A stretch of DNA of 64,000 nt from the NCBI GenBank assembly GCA_949292635.1, contig CASEZY010000001.1, positions 1 through 64,000 on the forward strand. The letters run 5' to 3'. This document shows positions 34,201 to 37,785 of the stretch, piece by piece; positions within the stretch are counted from its first letter, which is position 1; every line of letters starts with the position of its first letter. Position numbers and translations under genes: made by a program. The notes under the pieces were generated by a model that saw only the letters and a program-made list of their open reading frames with translations, had not been told where the DNA came from and made no database searches. Origin of the DNA: an uncultured Methanomassiliicoccales archaeon. GTDB lineage: Archaea > Thermoplasmatota > Thermoplasmata > Methanomassiliicoccales > Methanomethylophilaceae.

Positions 34201-35782
34201 TACCGGCCTGCACATCCCAGATGTCCGAATCCCCGGACAGGAAGATGTGGGTGGAACCATGGATCTGATTGTATCTGAGACTGCTACTGCTGTCCAGTCT
34301 TCCGCTGCCGCCGCCCTCCATGATGGTGGACTCGTCCAGCGTGAATCCCAGGGATCCGGCGATGTCGGTGCCGACCTGCTTCTCGTGGTATTGGTCCCCG
34401 GGCATCTTGATCCCCAGGGCGTAGATGAACGTCCCGCCCTGATCGTAGGTGGTCGTGGGCGATGCCTCGCCATAGATACTGGCATCGGTATTATCCTGAC
34501 CGGAACCGGACCCGCCGACCACGGTATCAAGGACCACCCCTCCCTTCAGCACCATGTATGTGGAAAGATGGACGCTGCTGCTGCCGATGGGTGCGTTCAC
34601 CCCTCCGGCGACCAGGTTGTAATAGACTCCGCTGTGCACCAGTACGAACGTGCCGAGATCGGGGCGGGTGGTGAATGCGGTGTCCGCGGAGACAATCTCC
34701 TTGTCGGTCATCACGGCAGAGGTCACCGCAGAGGTCCTGCCGCCGAACACCTGCGGTGCGCGGGTATGGGCGGTGGCCTCGGTGCCTATGCCCGTACCGA
34801 GGATGAGCTTGTGCCCGTTGGCGAAGATTCCGGACGAACTGTTGTCACCGTGATTGGTCGGATCCCGGTTCGATGTCAGCGATATGTTGTCGAAGATCGT
34901 GTCCCCGCCCAGACGGATGGTGGCGAATGTGATGTTGCTACCGTTGGATGAACGGATGGTGCAGGGGTCTTTGGTCTCTATCGAATTGGAACTGATATTG
35001 TTCCCGAGGACCATGATGTCGACGAACATCCTGTCGCTGTGTTTGGACTCACGTGCGCGGTCCACTGTGGGATCGATCGACGAAGATGTTATCGTCTTGT
35101 AAGTGTCGAAGGTCACAACCCATCTCGTGGTGCTTCCCTGACTGAGGCCTTCATTCGTACCGTTGACGTAGATGCTGGGTTCCGCCCAGACGGCGTACAG
35201 ATCGGTCACGGAGGACGGGACCACATCCCCTGGATAGTAGTCCAGGCTGCCGCCGTCGGTGGTGCTCCAGCCTGCGAACACCTTGTTGACCGTCACGCTG
35301 TCCACCGTGAATGATAATGTCAAACTCCCCGTGCGCCGTGTGGTCGAGAAGGTGTTGTCGCCGTTATCTTGTATGTTGCTTCCGGACACGAGGGTGACGG
35401 TCGTCCCTTCGGGCACGGAGACGGCCAAGGTTGCCGATGAATTCCACCAGAACGACCACGATGTGGATTTTGTGAAAGACAGTTTATCGAAGGTTACCGA
35501 CGGCCCCACCCAATTAGCCGGCTGCGAACTCACGCCGGTGACGCTTCCGTTCCAGAACTCAGGGTTGTACTCGGTGGCGGCGATCCCGTCGTAATGCACG
35601 GTGACCGATTCATCCTTACCGGATCCGTAGTGATACGTGATGTCCTGCCCCTGGCCGTCGCCCGTGGTCTGCAGGGTCTGCTGTGAAGATACGCCTGCCT
35701 GACCAGCAAGCGGGACAAGTATCACGGACAGCATCATGACTGCCGCCATGACCGCGACGAATGCCGCCAACTTGCCCTTCAT
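13235..35782 (-). CDS. Giant secreted adhesin-like protein (7515 residues) with YGGG, InlB-type and MBG/YDG-type repeats
   Basis: One uninterrupted frame of 22.5 kb. Residues 1-31 form a signal peptide (MKGKLAAFVAVMAAVMMLSV start, AGQAG end). An InlB-like AGW..YAVW block lies near 170-200. Residues about 580-1180 are rich in VYGGG/VFGGG turns with alternating short strands, suggesting a beta-helix. Residues about 1645-2720 contain several Listeria/Bacteroides-type repeats (GWYYDETF, GWYRDSDC, GWYLDEDF). Residues about 2720-7430 are dozens of 70-85-residue beta modules with YDG, YNG or YTG near the start and NAGTY or GNY near the end (MBG/YDG type). A C-terminal helix (about 7487-7508) and a final RRRR anchor it in the membrane. 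Likely a cell-surface adhesin of a wall-less gut archaeon; the ligand is unknown. Confidence 0.9.
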   Translation of the reverse strand: MKGKLAAFVAVMAAVMMLSVILVPLAGQAGVSSQQTLQTTGDGQGQDITYHYGSGKDESVTVHYDGIAATEYNPEFWNGSVTGVSSQPANWVGPSVTFDKLSFTKSTSWSFWWNSSATLAVSVPEGTTVTLVSGSNIQDNGDNTFSTTRRTGSLTLSFTVDSVTVNKVFAGWSTTDGGSLDYYPGDVVPSSVTDLYAVWAEPSIYVNGTNEGLSQGSTTRWVVTFDTYKTITSSSIDPTVDRARESKHSDRMFVDIMVLGNNISSNSIETKDPCTIRSSNGSNITFATIRLGGDTIFDNISLTSNRDPTNHGDNSSSGIFANGHKLILGTGIGTEATAHTRAPQVFGGRTSAVTSAVMTDKEIVSADTAFTTRPDLGTFVLVHSGVYYNLVAGGVNAPIGSSSVHLSTYMVLKGGVVLDTVVGGSGSGQDNTDASIYGEASPTTTYDQGGTFIYALGIKMPGDQYHEKQVGTDIAGSLGFTLDESTIMEGGGSGRLDSSSSLRYNQIHGSTHIFLSGDSDIWDVQAGNRRGISGADFAYLEISGNAVVRHVACGTITDGNRHADMTSVDAVRIVVRDNASVASVFGAGYDTWYYPNYSTMDDAISIDVLIKGGTVGSVYGGGYRGSITVSDGIAIEVSGGTILGDVFGGGRGGLDKIMHYADGTIYGEAYLDSTGKSEVNGNIIIAITGGEIRGNVYGGGESVPKLTAYSNLTLTNHPTSNITFNSAPNNVAAVNGNTSVTMSGGVVKGSIYGGGKGVLKENGTIYDQPMQVPALKGTSGSYEYVDILWNDNGVPTYDTSMSYLGYAAVSGDTSVSVSAGAVVEGNVYGGGRVGNVGGDAYVSIGASEVKTVIGGSVYGAGLGSQYSDDYGFVGSGSVTIANGSIGGSVYGGGAYGSMNDVAGASGDVHVIIDGSDITGDVYGGGRGSAAITGQGNVNDVTMTVTDSTVRGSIYGGGAYGTSASVSAIITGCTVDGSVYGGGLGIANRVSVTGPVSLTLDATEVKGDVYGGSAYGIVDGDIAVELRGGSYAGTVYGGGLGTANVRSTGAKRSVLLDGAKVSNSVYGGSRIGVDGIADTDGYSIVTILDAEIGSNVFGGGYRGQTWGNTYVYIGCDENGAPSSGNIIIGLSVFGGGDVGEATSGDELFNTVLVNGDSEVVIDGTNAKLSFSHSVFGEGNSCLTDGSTVVTIRNVKGLTIQSIQRADSLHMYGSELTFTGRNSGTSSSASELYSFYAIDYMELIGGTILTLNAPLGEVGDFFSMVSDGVLSTATSPINRVYLNEGTVFSLANSNGYGQVYGYTILSLPSIEIYYGAFAYGSVDSSGGFVTEEDGMYRELQRYELTDPLCSYWCIVGAVEITTSAVLKNDPSLGDNALIVENITAGLPMVSAGTTLLYTGGSFTPNSMGSYSLVQGTPTTQRQLAVLMGSGGGTTFNGGKGVYIPDGSSGTSVAVRADATSVTSPTIWLSVEGLNPAFFGYVGTVTIQFSEVMISDSSTEDEQYVFFNTINLSVEIYLEGETLPTSGTLGIDTVNGAGSSDMVMPPADKEGILYLKSVTMNGGSAISMSSVSNREGSNGWNSSHSTWTFSADTSDRIQIGSFNGSFPSTIRFAVEGFDQSSCSYVFEFVAEFNDGTEHPFTITVEVVSYPNVTVTFVDSRQNVTTSMQFPYGSIITSGDAPQTRGNFIGWYYDETFTRAFNYSTPLTGDITLYARYMFTVTFDEMYGGRTSTYYLPMGSSLTLDNHGSKDPVRTGYVFTGWYRDSDCLVLWDFDNDKVEDDVTLYAGWQPRGIILDFYQSHDSTDPFLTFDSKYGISLDDTFGEYLAQAVSEYVSKFGAVTAGVLTWTVHATGVHTPVYSDNVITYTMVTVIGEEWHVSIHGNILYDPIEVVLESTDYGVEISPPSSFYVSPTDGYYMITPSGAERVGYRLTGWTIVATGGFHIVGHTISIPASEIKDYLSGDGKIHLTTSWERLSYMVVVMKPSGGTVFASILTEDGREYGDEYPTYYAFTAYYGDRISLSYTSESGYHFVGWMLSKDGDIDDTSSPTTTMTVRGDARVEVQISGLQNVTIRLSENGTVPLGGTVTLISGDRTYTPRQSGTSGNYGIYSVSALLGEYTLRYTDSDGDYIDIATVNVVTGGVTVSYEIVSIDVTSDPELDLGDLPAYAIPGTKVDLTVPHGYAVTKLERVYDNGRHDMGAVSYFIVPDTQSTGLTVNVSLEAAKYTIEFVIDDYKNGDQTVSFDGIQSIIITYSPDGMVYPTLPWVTLDGYDLNSLDHPTTSEYSFLGWYLDEDFMYRVQSGDAFPEENVTLHARITLRSEVIYKVEVYLQEIGGNYPSTPIVIETTELSDQYVGWRPNYPGFKEESTDYQSVVVAEGMDSITVKMERAKGTATLKLDGGSVVDANGWTVSGNTATREVWFGETVELPTVAKLENVFDGWQINGATVSSIQVGQQFWDQKSNTVSVEVTAKWTVNEYELVFFTMYGTFTNGQSRITVSVPYGAPLASYLQAQRQALIQSDTDLYLNFDGWEINQVTVADDAVMPATNMDVHATWVPKDVNITVTGDEYVSLSVSGNNLSGSDGKYVSVFDSVIDLALLFDDGYSLSSASGASVKPVKVSNTQFRWTVPLNADNVTVGADGTLSLNLNIQSVESTVTVNYVINRVVADSLFQNVPSGQEVVLRNLSGITGLKFDGWYLDEGRSNKVQDNKIPASTSQTTYVVYGWLEFAKTPTVNINAPSLSLVNEVYEGTYDGSNHVLSATADAGVDLDALRATGLDFDIVYTITWDSAADDSVSVIFAGEYSYQLTAGAALSIEGTVADTSDQYGDTVSISIDKANATAVWNHESSYTYNGTDRISTVTAHFIGADGRRYPLTVSVNADAFRNAGEYTFTAVSSDTNHEVSNLTLELTIAKRPLTITQSNTLTYSGQAQSPEFKDDRVSGDTISYSLTGSETDAGTYTITFGTLSGADAGNYEPPTSVTWRIGRVSVSDITWTVKGTYTYTGQPIVPEVTAAGTAADMQSGTDYRTSGIQGMNNVNAGTAYVLVEGIGNYSGTWTLEFQIGKQTVQVPSVDEVPYTGSQQTNPYEALASEGGFTVSGTDVAATNPGTYKVTLTLTDTANRVWSDGTASIEAEWVIDQPSLATVPDSVTLTYNGRTQTAYSDGTGYTVVSGGSGSKAGEYTVVLRVAPGYVWNIDTVDTADKEVTWTIGKAGSITVTADSDTKKYDGSPLINDGFTYTGTLYNGDTVEAVISGTITNFGIATNTVVSVKVVNTAGEDVTDCYTYGTHVNGELSITKRSVTLTSASATETYDRTVLLPQIVTVTGDGFAAGEGATYKFTGGQKTVGTSVNTFDYTLNSNTLAANYDITKVEGTLTVNSVTLTIQWGTTEFKYNGKQQIPTATLNGIIDGDTVGYKTSVNGGAVNAGSYTLTISLDGADAGNYVLSSTDHTTFTIAKRQVTLASASESKPYDGIALTNGNITVTGDWFADGEGATYDVTGSILFVGNVVNAFSYTLNPGTLEDNYEITKSEGTLTITRHAGITVTADSNRKDYDGTPLTDGGYQITGTLAQGDSISVTISGSQTTVGYSANTVTEVKITRDGADVADQYQFVNRVNGTLTVVTRSLVNEDFSFTPDSHVYTGSAITGTLSPTNWTPADGDYSVRYEDNTNTGTARVIVTGSGNCEGEIEYTWVIRPKAVTITWSGYEYVYNGNDQRPTFTIGTGIEGQTLDVEGLTVTIHEMMSGNDLGEVSGSVSVGSYRIIIESLNNDNYVLPSNAHRDYSINAKQLTASQSNSLTYNGQSQSPTFSLSGVVGSDDVSVRTDAGGVNAGSYAADISLTGDAAGNYTLASDSVNWSIAALSINSASITISGDTVYTGQQIRPTVDFVKVGEVVVTGYDVSYGLNVNAGTGTVTVTVPSGGNFSGSCTEEFEIGKATVSISWGDKEFVYNGGTQYPTYTLTGVNNNVLTGSHRITLSGTETSPVNAGSYVITVTSISNGNYKLPDDASTGFTIAKKEVSITWNTTSFVYDRTNKTPTFTAETGVSGETVSPGITVYLGGSVVTSHSNVGTYTAGLTLDHVNYVLPADRSTEFSITPATVNVSLSETYFPYDGQTHTVTVSSSGIVGGDNVIVSPAGTLSSSAAGTYTVTLELVGNDAGNYVLSHRSLSWTIGSLSLDDAKIDYDETSFEYDGTQIKPTFQIYVDGVLIPSGHYSVTYGDNTNAGTGTVTVTATGSSCTGSKGFSFVIDQRSVTAQSVTLVYSGAEQCPEAFDLDRIVSTGGGSDDVSVRIISCTSQTDKGTYSASIELTGDDAANYQLTSDTVSWEITARGITDGVSIDNIEDVVFRGTNITPDITATFAGSTLQKDTDYTLGYTANVNVGTVTVTVTGIGNFTGSTTLTFDITPYTVTIEWGTVTEFTYNGETQRPSFTIRGVNVTLIGTYTVSGASDTSRNVGEYTITITGIQGNTLGNYELPTDHSKGFEILQKEVTIQQSNELVYNEGSQSPEFSIVGLIAGDDVSVSTTASATNAGDYKAQVYLIGTHSGNYRLVSTEADWSIAKASLGLHLLVEELETDTQKPIILTESFTEKYGGTVEWVSHDFDEEYIFVADNVIYPKAKGKAVVEAFISGMTNYEDDGWIIVVTVHDAEITGVTVKGYTGVYDGQEHNMVEVSGVSRMFNMAFSTNGTDYVSEMPKVRDVADSGTVYVKVEAPGFVTTVFEATVTITRASATVTWGGLSTVYDGSVQTVTAHIGTDELTVSVYQNGAVAEFKDAGTYNVIADISAYLDNYSVKHVIGTAVISKKPVDVSLSSESLVYTGAPLAVTIDQSGLIQADIDGKLVGLSLSGDLVATDVGTYEVVVSLTGSAAINYTIENPTVSWSIEQRSLSGATVSITGGDWVYTGQAIQPTVTVDIEGVDFASNDYRVVYTNNVNAGTATVTVVPGDSGNCSGSVSETFTIAKKTLTFTSPDGKKVYDGTPLVDLNIVAKGFVSASHGFTATVTGSQTDVGSSDNTFTVILTGGASTANYDVKYVYGTLEVTPATIEVAWNVYDMTYDGKEHTFSPFTNGIITGDTVVPTVVITYNDGTVASAVNVGEYTIKVTGITGADARNYELGGTLEASFEITKANAQIVWSGVDATYTYDGTDRKGEIEAVFRDTSNNAEYDLTISYDGFTEFRNAGSYTFTVDISGYSANYEITGQTEVTLTMNRKAISAEQTNSPTYNGMELRPTFELKNLVEGDIVDYVIISGGSAVNAGTYTATIGLTGDAAGNYSIPSPTLAARPTTVDQYQVDWVIGKLSISGADIVIGGYDEVYDANPKTPGVTVTIAGITLGPTDFILSYDNNINAGEAKVTVTATDNSNFTGSEDETFSIEKRKVTITSGSADKLYDRTPLTDRSITIDGFANDHAVQIVWSGTITDVGTVDNTFTYTLINGASADNYHVTVKYGTLEVTARSLEGATIAVAGGSWTYNGSDIEPGITSVTIAGITLDSGEYSVGYTNNRHAGTATITVSASSNNFSGSATANFEIEPVRITVTSESLNKVYDGSALNNGERDVTITNGSFVSGEGFTWTFTGSQTAVGSSQNSFTYAAKEGTIADNYRVTVKYGILEVTVRNLSDNDFTFAQDSEIYTGSEIEGTLTANGWNPQIGDYSVSYSDNINAGPAKVEITASSGNTDGSVILTFEIKQKDVIGATVTLAEGTWTYTGSEIEPDVSSVIIDGLTLVIVRDFTVSYEDNINAGTATVRISGTGNFTGEVTATFTIGEKVLEIDWGTIGTVYNGANQDLDPKLSGIVGTDAVGFDHTLTSGGSTVEHVRNAGDYVYTITGLTGAAAGNYELPAVHVKEFTIAKATITVGLEQYVFTHTGNEHTVKGTVAGIFGVDSSIVSVTFGGRTSATDANTTPYEVTVTLSGEGIGNYELSATTLYWSIGALDLSGAIIHWVDSHEYTGSAITPTFTITVNGVLIPSSDYDATWTNNTNEGEATLVISAASGNGSCTGSAEFTFTITPKEISAVQSGELTYNGTEQTPGFVLNGVVEKDNGCVSVTHSAKETDAGAYEATLTLVLTGSASGNYVLESTTVEWSIGSYDIAGTDVSVGTIDDQVYKGSEITPGINATFETSAMQNAIPMVSGVDYNLSYSANVNVGTATVTVEGTGNFTGTRTVTFNITQATVAIGWGTTGLTYNGLSQIPTFTITGVNGATVGRTYLITGDNVVAGTNAAIHAGSYTISITGLDDDNYKLPDDGTATTKFSIAPKELTVIQTNIPTYDGVPHTPSFVLGGVVGNDDVKVATSDSATNAGTYSANVKLEGSASGDYTIDATASWRIDKASATIVWNGADGTYTYDGNDQKGSITAVFNGISDQDLAVTVTLNGTTAAFVNAGEYTFAVDVSGFENNYVITGDMSVTVTMQQRPVSASQDGSLTYNGSAQAPVFKLDGIVNNDVVIAGTTDKQTDAGTYTSRLSLSGVSAGNYVLSNDEVQWTIGKAGGSVVWTYNKEYTYSGADHIESITAVFNGVGSETSKSLSFALGSPTVFKDAGTYVFIADLSDYEGNYDITGESVTLTMHRLELEVEQANIPVYDGNGHIPSLDISGVLGVDGNIGYVITSGSETDAGEYTATVLLTDDNYALPGSMTEYGEYQVQWKIEKRSIAGATIELGAFDAVYDAKPKAPDVISVTISGLTVPLSGIDVTYGNNTNAGTAYVHVDAQGCANFTGTAYRSFTIEQRTIIPSLEKYGLTFNGGEQNVVTGYSGHVDGDDVIVNFTGTLSATAANGDYRVYVSLDGASKDNYRLSATELVWHIHRLDIGDPSVNVSDVADRVYTGVAIMPDISASVGDYVLTSGVDYSLAYSGDNINVTPNGVTINVTGSGNFTGERTVTFQILPKDLKDVTGADWRVDGSYVYDGAAHAVTVSNHAGLFQGNDYTVYSDAVVAGSHSAIITGVGNYTGTVGVGFIIAPAPIDGVTLDRNEWTYTGVQIRPAVTKVTAGSFDLVPGDYDITYGENVNAGTGTVTVQGKGNYGGSYVVRFTISAITHEGVHIAPVGDVVYNGTLQRPGITATAGGLTLSEGRDYILSWSDNVNAGTATIVVEYTGNYTGSERVTFNIVPKQLTEGDMTFVPDSTVYNGSPIRGVLNAEGWYPQTTDYSVSYRGNVNAGTATVTVSGVGGNVIGSLTFTFVIDPMDIADAGANWTVEGDHVYQGGVPDVTVTNDMGLVEGVDFTVSVSSVHAGSSTVTISGIGNYTGNVYLEFQILERPISYGDFDVDYVNTTYAGVPIEKPVVSLNGLVQGVDYRVTYIDNLYPGLSTIRIEGIGSVTGVLNYYFTIHKAPLTITADDVVYRMGHPGPNLTYTIEGLRGDDTAESLAQLPVLRTNFTGTQGIGVYDVVLQVFEDRCYDITFVNGTLTVEDHRAVVNWGSLDLTFRDRELAISVTATNAQGETVSLQYSVYMDGREAVLLYVGTYTVTAVLPEGWELDTSVEGNTLTQTVTIHEPSLLGNHLGWFLLVLLPMLLASLYLMWDVDRRRR
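13500..27620 (-). repeat. Tandem MBG/YDG-type beta-domain array inside the giant adhesin
   Basis: About 4,700 residues consist of related modules. Three interleaved classes recur: VYDGTPL...GSQTDVGSSDNTF...NYDVKYVYGTLEV; YTGSEIEP...SVSYSDNINAG...GNFTG; and YNGTEQTPGF...ETDAGAYEATL...GNY. I estimate around 60 copies from the spacing. DNA copies are diverged, but several segments are nearly identical, for example those around 18965-19010 and 19445-19490. Confidence 0.8.
27620..30850 (-). repeat. InlB/Listeria-Bacteroides-type repeat region of the giant adhesin
   Basis: The encoded segment (about residues 1645-2720) holds several beta-grasp-like repeats ending in GW-Y-D and LYARY or LYAGW motifs, typical of InlB B-repeats (PF09479 type). 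Clear copies lie near 30650-30830, 30420-30650, 28850-29110 and 27630-27820. Such repeats act as stalks in bacterial and archaeal surface proteins. Confidence 0.7.
32250..34040 (-). repeat. YGGG-turn repeat region of the giant adhesin
   Basis: About 600 residues contain around 20 copies of (S/D/T)-V-(Y/F)-GGG followed by a short linker, such as GSVYGGGLG, GDVYGGGRG and NVFGGGYRG. The spacing of 20-35 residues and alternating hydrophobic strands suggest a right-handed beta-helix (pectin-lyase-like). The repeats at DNA level are GCCTCCGCCGTA-type on the plus strand. Confidence 0.75.
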
Positions 35783-36380
35783 GCCGGGCCCCCCCCCCCC
35801 TAACGGGGTTAAGAGTTACACCCGGAACGTCGTGATTCATCATGCATCTCCTCGTGGTACGAGCGCTTTTCAGCAATCCCTTATCGCGTGTTCCGAACAC
35901 ACATGACCGGGCACAGGTTCTCGCTCCCCACTCGTTTTACGAACCGGGGAGCACTGTGCGTCTTGGAAACTGTATTGTATACATGCAGGATAAAACCTTT
36001 TTTTCTGGTTGTACAGTAAACTTAACTTTTTGAGTCGGTTATTTGTAAAAATCAACGGTGTTAACCCCTGTGAACTCGGGATCTTGAATTAACACCATTT
36101 ATTAACATAAGTTTAGAAAAACCCTGCTCATTGTAGGATGTTAACGGTAGTTTATCTCAATCGTGCTAATAAATGACACGTCAAATGTAAAATTCCTATC
36201 TTTTTTTAGATATTTACGACTTTTATGACTATTTTTACATCATTCGCAACCATGAAGGCTTCGGCCTGCGAGATTCGATACGATGTTTTTGGGATTCGTC
36301 GAGGTATATAATCCGATTATACAGAGTATATATATTGGATATCCAACGTTCGAACACCGTTATATAGAAATTCGTGAGAA
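35783..36380. other. AT-rich intergenic region upstream of the giant adhesin
   Basis: 598 bases hold no convincing gene. Its right part is about 65-70 % A+T by eye and rich in TATA-like and T-run elements (for example around 36196-36214 and 36323-36345). For the minus-strand adhesin, TATA candidates lie at about 35970-36000 (GTATACAATA and GGTTTTATCC), giving a leader of roughly 150-200 bases. An inverted repeat, GGTGTTAA (36057-36064) and TTAACACC (36089-36096), and a self-complementary TGGATATCCA (36337-36346) could be regulatory. Confidence 0.6.
35789..35800 (-). promoter_or_regulatory. 12-nt poly-G tract between an upstream ATG and the adhesin start (candidate phase-variation tract)
   Basis: On the coding strand twelve G are followed by CCCGGC and the ATG at 35782. 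An upstream ATG at 35843, preceded by GAGGAG, reads MMNHDVPGV... through the tract but is one base out of frame with the adhesin (61 bases apart). With 11 or 14 G the frames would join, adding about 20 residues ahead of the signal peptide. The tract also lies where a Shine-Dalgarno sequence would be. Homopolymers are error-prone in assemblies, so the count may be inexact. Confidence 0.6.
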
Positions 36381-36966: not shown

Positions 36967-37785
36967 TCACAACAACGGTTCCGGACCGTCCTTCAGCTCA
37001 TGATCCTCCGTACGGCCCAATTCCTCCAGCTTCTGCAGGATGATCTCCCTTCCCCGCTGTGATGCGCCGTACACCGGCACCGAGGTGCCCGCTTGTATGG
37101 TGGCATGTTCCTGCGCAAGCTCGCGCACCCATTTGGAGGCGCAGGCGGTGATGATGTCGCAGTATTGGTAGTAGGTCTCCGCATCCTCCTTGGAGATGCC
37201 GGTGGTATGCACCGCCGAGATCAGCAGCCTGTCGCCGTAGGTCTCCCTCAGATATCTGGCATCCGCAGCGGATGCCACGGAGACCGCCATACGGCGATAT
37301 CCCTTCTCATCCGCCAGAGCGACACCGGCCCTAATGTCGATGGGCGTCGTCTCGGGATCCAACACGTTATCGGCACCGATGGCGTCGATCACGCTCTTGA
37401 TGGGGGATGTCTCCACTATCGCAGAAACCCTTCCGCCCATCCCCTGGACTATCTCGGGATCGGTTAGCACGCAGGTGCCGCAACCGTCCGCCGCGGTTAC
37501 CACCGCATCTACCTCCCCCTTGACCAGGGCCATGCTCATTATCTCCGAGATACCGAAGCTGAGGAAGTACCCCATGCGCACCTGGCGGTTCTCCGAGCAC
37601 ATGCCGAATGTGTCAGCGCGATACTGCATGTTCTCCCAGATGGTGTCGACGTTAAGCTCCTCGATGCCCCTGTGCTTCCTGAACAGCGGACATTTCCGGA
37701 CCTTCGGCTCGGTGACCTCGACGACCTTGCCGTCCTCGTACACCACCCTGGACATCCCCAGGGCCTCCATCACGTGCCTTCCCAT
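36967..37785 (-). CDS. Methanogenesis marker protein 8 (DUF2099)
   Basis: The 272-residue protein matches DUF2099, a family found almost only in methanogens and related archaea. It has conserved cysteines in RKCPLF (Cys32), FGMCSENR, AADGCGTCVLTDPEIVQGMGG and the C-terminal ITACASKWVRE. The GCGTC pair suggests metal or cluster binding. Its function is not established. It is the last of three minus-strand genes. The upstream gene's TGA directly abuts its ATG, implying coupling. It supports assignment of the organism to the methanogens. Confidence 0.88.
   Translation of the reverse strand: MGRHVMEALGMSRVVYEDGKVVEVTEPKVRKCPLFRKHRGIEELNVDTIWENMQYRADTFGMCSENRQVRMGYFLSFGISEIMSMALVKGEVDAVVTAADGCGTCVLTDPEIVQGMGGRVSAIVETSPIKSVIDAIGADNVLDPETTPIDIRAGVALADEKGYRRMAVSVASAADARYLRETYGDRLLISAVHTTGISKEDAETYYQYCDIITACASKWVRELAQEHATIQAGTSVPVYGASQRGREIILQKLEELGRTEDHELKDGPEPLL

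Follow-up and report, generated by a model that had tools for sequence, protein, structure and literature searches.

A run of 12 G residues lies at the beginning of a giant surface-protein gene in a methanogen of the family Methanomethylophilaceae, which raises the question of whether this gut-type archaeon could switch the gene on and off by gain or loss of single bases, as in the phase variation of bacteria such as Campylobacter. To address this, we examined the 64,000-nt stretch of DNA that carries the gene (the window), the remainder of its genome (G000) and the genomes of its relatives (numbered G001 upwards).

The tract and the start of the adhesin gene

The preliminary description placed twelve G six bases before the adhesin ATG and an upstream ATG with a GAGGAG ribosome site 61 bases from it, and this observation is confirmed. 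On the coding (minus) strand the sequence reads GAGGAG ATGC ATG ATG AATCACGACG...CCCGTTA GGGGGGGGGGGG CCCGGC ATG AAG, where the G12 homopolymer occupies positions 35789-35800 and the downstream ATG occupies 35780-35782. The upstream ATG at 35843 is one base out of frame with ATG 35782 and reads through the tract, and loss of one G or gain of two joins this frame to the adhesin, as had been stated. The tract is the only G/C run longer than 6 in the window; dinucleotide shuffles give an expectation of 0.06, and 4 of 100 shuffles hold such a run, so the homopolymer is longer than chance allows. The open reading frame at 13235-35782 (minus strand) encodes 7515 residues, with a signal-peptide-like hydrophobic segment at 35696-35782 (MKGKLAAFVAVMAAVMMLSVILVPLAG), Flg_new/List-Bact repeats followed by MBG/YDG repeats, and a C-terminal hydrophobic anchor (LGWFLLVLLPMLLASLYLMW). 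The neighbouring gene at 36967-37785 (minus strand) is methanogenesis marker 8 (TIGR03275), which identifies the host as a methanogen, and SecY places the organism beside Candidatus Methanomethylophilaceae MAG E17__bin108.

The only slip in the preliminary description was to name 35782 as the adhesin start. Among five congeners, G005 has the best orthologue (58% identity over 587 residues, in a 6377-aa frame), which starts at an ATG 7 nt after GAGGAG. The aligned DNA in G000 is GAGGAG-ATGCATG-ATG, which corresponds to a Shine-Dalgarno (SD) sequence at 35848-35853 and an ATG at 35838-35840 (minus strand) that, at 7 nt from GAGGAG, has better spacing than ATG 35841-35843, in the same frame. G005 has GAGGGGACCCGG, and thus no tract, at the aligned place and no Met aligned to 35782, which was called as a start by an ORF finder; at the place of the tract it has CCCGAGGGGACCCGG and reads straight into its signal peptide. 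The G000 start is therefore most likely ATG 35840 and the tract is most likely coding, where leader codons at 35801-35840 (MNHDVPGVTLNPV) read into the G tract and then into PGMKGKLAAFVAV. With 12 G this arrangement is one base out of frame, whereas with 11 G it is open. G005 has a G11 of its own, but about 80 nt upstream of its ATG, in the leader, so the same gene has a tract in both species at different places. Two further congeners with a weaker homologue (G001 and G003) have no tract there, and a scan of genome contigs with the adhesin N-terminus found no second assembly of the species.

Recurrence of poly-G tracts in the genome and its relatives

The 1.48-Mb G000 genome has ten tracts of at least nine G. 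Besides the adhesin, these include a secreted protein with G11 in its N-terminus, in frame; a BspA-type LRR surface protein with C9 before the signal peptide, one base out of frame; a D12 DNA methylase with G11 just before its DPPY motif, in frame; an HTH_10 regulator with G10 at its start (contig C1, 107356-107365), which could be a switch of a whole regulon; and the leader of an ABC-transporter ATPase gene. Several others are intergenic with no obvious role. The methylase gene (contig C4, 106547-107398) is directly followed by a Type II restriction enzyme gene (PADLOC, E=2.7e-60). The orthologous pair in G021, a member of another genus of the same family, is found on contig C15; its methylase is 63% identical and has G11 at a different codon, near residue 30 and one base out of frame, with no tract at the G000 site, which indicates two independent gains in one gene.

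G021 has 97 tracts, of which about 60 were read with enough flank. Of these, 25 belong to one family of BspA-type LRR surface genes (Pfam assignment on two members) that share a fixed layout of SD-ATG, 16 to 20 codons, G11/12 and signal peptide. Two are in frame and 23 are not (a binomial estimate of two or fewer, for random frames, is about 0.004), yet the downstream frames remain open over 138-920 codons. This is fewer in frame than a random third and suggests an OFF-biased repertoire with few proteins shown at a time. The five closest paralogue pairs in G021 all have equal tract length, and a comparison of the twin leaders L125:8707 and L142:2528 (locus and position) showed that they do not differ only in tract length. 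In G029 the tracts follow the signal peptide, and two paralogues that are 96% identical upstream have G13 (out of frame) and G12 (in frame). Orthologous ABC-transporter ATPase genes of G000, G008 and G020 carry C10-11 in their leaders; in G008 and G020, whose proteins are 88% identical, the tract abuts an ATTATATA box and differs in length, C11 against C10. These paralogue and orthologue comparisons are only proxies for variation between clones or strains.

When compared with control runs of G5-6 in the same DNA, tracts of at least nine G lie between an SD-start and a signal-peptide-like long ORF far more often, in 37/129 cases against 11/272 (P=1e-11) or, without G021, in 10/70 against 6/172 (P=0.004), although the sizes of these effects are rough because a home-made caller was used. 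The tracts are G-specific: runs of at least 10 G against at least 10 A number 7/0 in G000, 94/3 in G021, 10/0 in G020, 11/0 in G008 and 15/0 in G029, even though G021 and G029 are 49% and 40% G+C in the DNA read. For G000 alone the excess over a simple geometric model is modest (7 against 2.5), but this model overstates long runs. Tract lengths peak at 11. Runs of at least 10 G are found in 22 of 26 family genomes sampled and are mostly absent in several other families of the class. Profile searches for MutS_V (PF00488) and NucS_C (PF01939) gave no hit above cut-off in any of 41 genomes, with controls positive, so neither MutS nor NucS was found in the order. Weak or absent mismatch repair is typical of Campylobacter but not obligatory for contingency loci.

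A proposed frame switch and its alternatives

We propose that the G12 tract is a translational phase-variation switch (a contingency locus), to which we assign a probability of about 0.72. In this view, translation starts at ATG 35840 behind GAGGAG and about 14 codons later enters the G tract, which is followed at once by the signal peptide. Slipped-strand mispairing during replication, left unrepaired, would change the number of G, such that with 11 or 14 G the leader is in frame and the adhesin is made (ON), whereas with 12 or 13 G the ribosome runs into another frame and does not make it (OFF), apart from any weak internal initiation at ATG 35782, which could give some protein in every phase. 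The tract and its frames, the conserved SD and start, the surface domain make-up, the recurrence of the arrangement and the failure to find MutS or NucS come directly from the analysis; that tract length really varies in populations, the rate of slippage and the reversible switching of expression are inferred. The OFF assignment of G000 also depends on the homopolymer count of a draft assembly, which may be off by one.

The interpretation in the preliminary description is thus only partly supported: phase variation is well supported by comparison, but the mechanism differs. The genome has several such loci, biased to surface and restriction-modification genes, and the same arrangement recurs at surface-protein and DNA-methylase genes across the relatives, so an archaeal group probably uses phase variation of the kind known from bacteria such as Campylobacter. 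It had suggested that ribosomes starting upstream could occlude the adhesin start and that tract length would change the spacing of a G-rich SD-like region. Neither idea is needed if the tract is coding, and folding gave no length effect on access to the SD at 35848-35853 (0.21-0.27 unpaired for 9-14 G). A transcript start downstream of 35843 had been named in advance as a refutation; a start between 35843 and 35782 is not favoured: a weak TATA-like TGTATACA (a consensus match only) lies at 35976-35983 (minus strand), at the end of the AT-rich upstream region, and no TATA-like 8-mer was found between it and 35782.

Of the alternatives, the one that survives best, although unlikely, is that translation starts at ATG 35782 and the tract lies in the 5' leader, where it tunes initiation or transcription through a G-rich SD, RNA structure or promoter spacing. 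ATG 35782 opens the full ORF and follows G12 at 6 nt, the congener's own tract is in the leader, and leader tracts are common in relatives. However, Met35782 is absent from the congener while the GAGGAG-ATG at 35840 is conserved, the tract is coding and before the signal peptide in the G021 paralogues and at other G000 surface genes, and folding predicts little effect of tract length. It is slightly less likely that transcriptional slippage or ribosomal frameshifting makes a fraction of in-frame product whatever the DNA length, with constant expression at a reduced level. Long homopolymers are slippery for polymerases, and most G021 paralogues are out of frame in the assembly yet keep long open reading frames. 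A programmed frameshift site would require a uniform offset, which is not observed: offsets of 0, +1 and +2 occur among the paralogues, G11 copies mostly carry one extra base and G12 copies two, and some copies are in frame as they stand. Random slippage is not excluded. An assembly or base-calling artefact, whereby the true length is 11 or 14 and the gene is simply intact, is doubtful; homopolymer counts in draft genomes are error-prone, but this affects the ON/OFF call and not the existence of the tract, and ten tracts here and 97 in G021, with reproducible positions, are not artefacts. Neutral expansion in a dispensable, possibly dying, adhesin gene is the least likely reading because, although MutS and NucS were not found and some tracts are intergenic, only G and not A runs are expanded even in AT-rich genomes, tracts are enriched before signal peptides and recur independently in orthologous methylases, and out-of-frame copies keep long ORFs.

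Slippage at poly-G is an established bacterial mechanism. The contingency loci of Campylobacter jejuni (PMC8355987; 29 loci with tracts of 7 or more in NCTC11168, PMC4965091) likewise comprise many intragenic and intergenic G/C tracts in surface and restriction-modification genes, in an organism without functional mismatch repair and with a preferred tract length, which is mostly G9-G10 there and 11 here (PMC8355987). The present case differs in that the host is an archaeon, the targets are giant anchored adhesins and LRR proteins with the tract just before the signal peptide, and switching is inferred. In phase-variable bacterial DNA methyltransferases (phasevarions; PMC13076061) a repeat tract inside a methylase gene would similarly switch it by frameshift, but the methylase here is of the D12 (Dam-like) class and next to a Type II restriction enzyme rather than a Type III mod gene, with independent tract gains in two archaeal orthologues. 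Orsi et al. (2010; PMC2831843) proposed that 5' homopolymers inactivate genes reversibly in a statistical study that included 18 archaeal genomes, but it was about mostly short poly-A/T tracts and no archaeal poly-G surface-gene repertoire was found described there. Phase variation of a surface-adhesion protein in an archaeal setting is represented by the haloarchaeal virus phiCh1 (Klein et al. 2012, cited in PMC8371274), which is reportedly a DNA-inversion system in a virus and not slipped-strand mispairing. A 2025 review (PMC11868660) leaves the spread of phase variation by homopolymer slippage in archaea as future work, and we found no report for this order, and none for archaeal surface genes, in the open-licence full texts searched. 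If the proposal is true, gut and rumen methanogens diversify their surface and their DNA methylation at random in each population, which bears on how they attach to partners, evade viruses and meet host antibodies, and on how methane-reduction vaccines aimed at surface adhesins would fare.

A second tract arrangement in 5' leaders

A search of 147 genomes of the order for the pattern G8+, 15-45 nt, CTCCG, 2-8 nt, GGAG gave matches in six; in five of these the reversed control gave 0, whereas the sixth (G352) looks like chance. We extracted 19 leaders from five species in two genera (G020, G374, G375, G224 and G005), all of which precede ORFs of 378 codons or more with signal-peptide-like starts; one other match before an 84-codon ORF and one before a 2-codon ORF were left out. 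In these leaders a tract of G9-13 is followed by a short loop, a pyrimidine stretch (94% C/U), a CCUCCG-N3/4-GGAGG hairpin over the SD, and the ATG. An AT-rich peak 41-49 nt before the tract suggests a TATA box and a transcribed tract. This element is a solid sequence observation, although a role of tract length in SD access is only a possibility. Folding without G-quadruplexes predicts a closed SD up to 11-12 G and opening at 13-15 (median unpaired 0.00 at 11, 0.30 at 13 and 0.55 at 15), and shuffling the region between tract and hairpin, or blanking the pyrimidine stretch, largely removes the effect, but allowing G-quadruplexes abolishes it. A speculative reading, which the evidence does not rule out but which we consider unlikely, is that an order of methanogens without MutS or NucS runs a genome-wide poly-G phase-variation system with two kinds of switch: coding-frame tracts before signal peptides, as at this adhesin, and these leaders, in which the G tract would pair with the pyrimidine stretch and, when longer, displace the hairpin that hides the SD, so that tract length would set translation by RNA structure.

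In G021, G001, G002 and G004 many poly-G tracts lie within 200-500 bases of contig ends, as if assemblers break there, which could reflect repeats or mixed lengths. The G008 genome also contains an exceptional G23 run (contig C1, position 1502 of locus L068).
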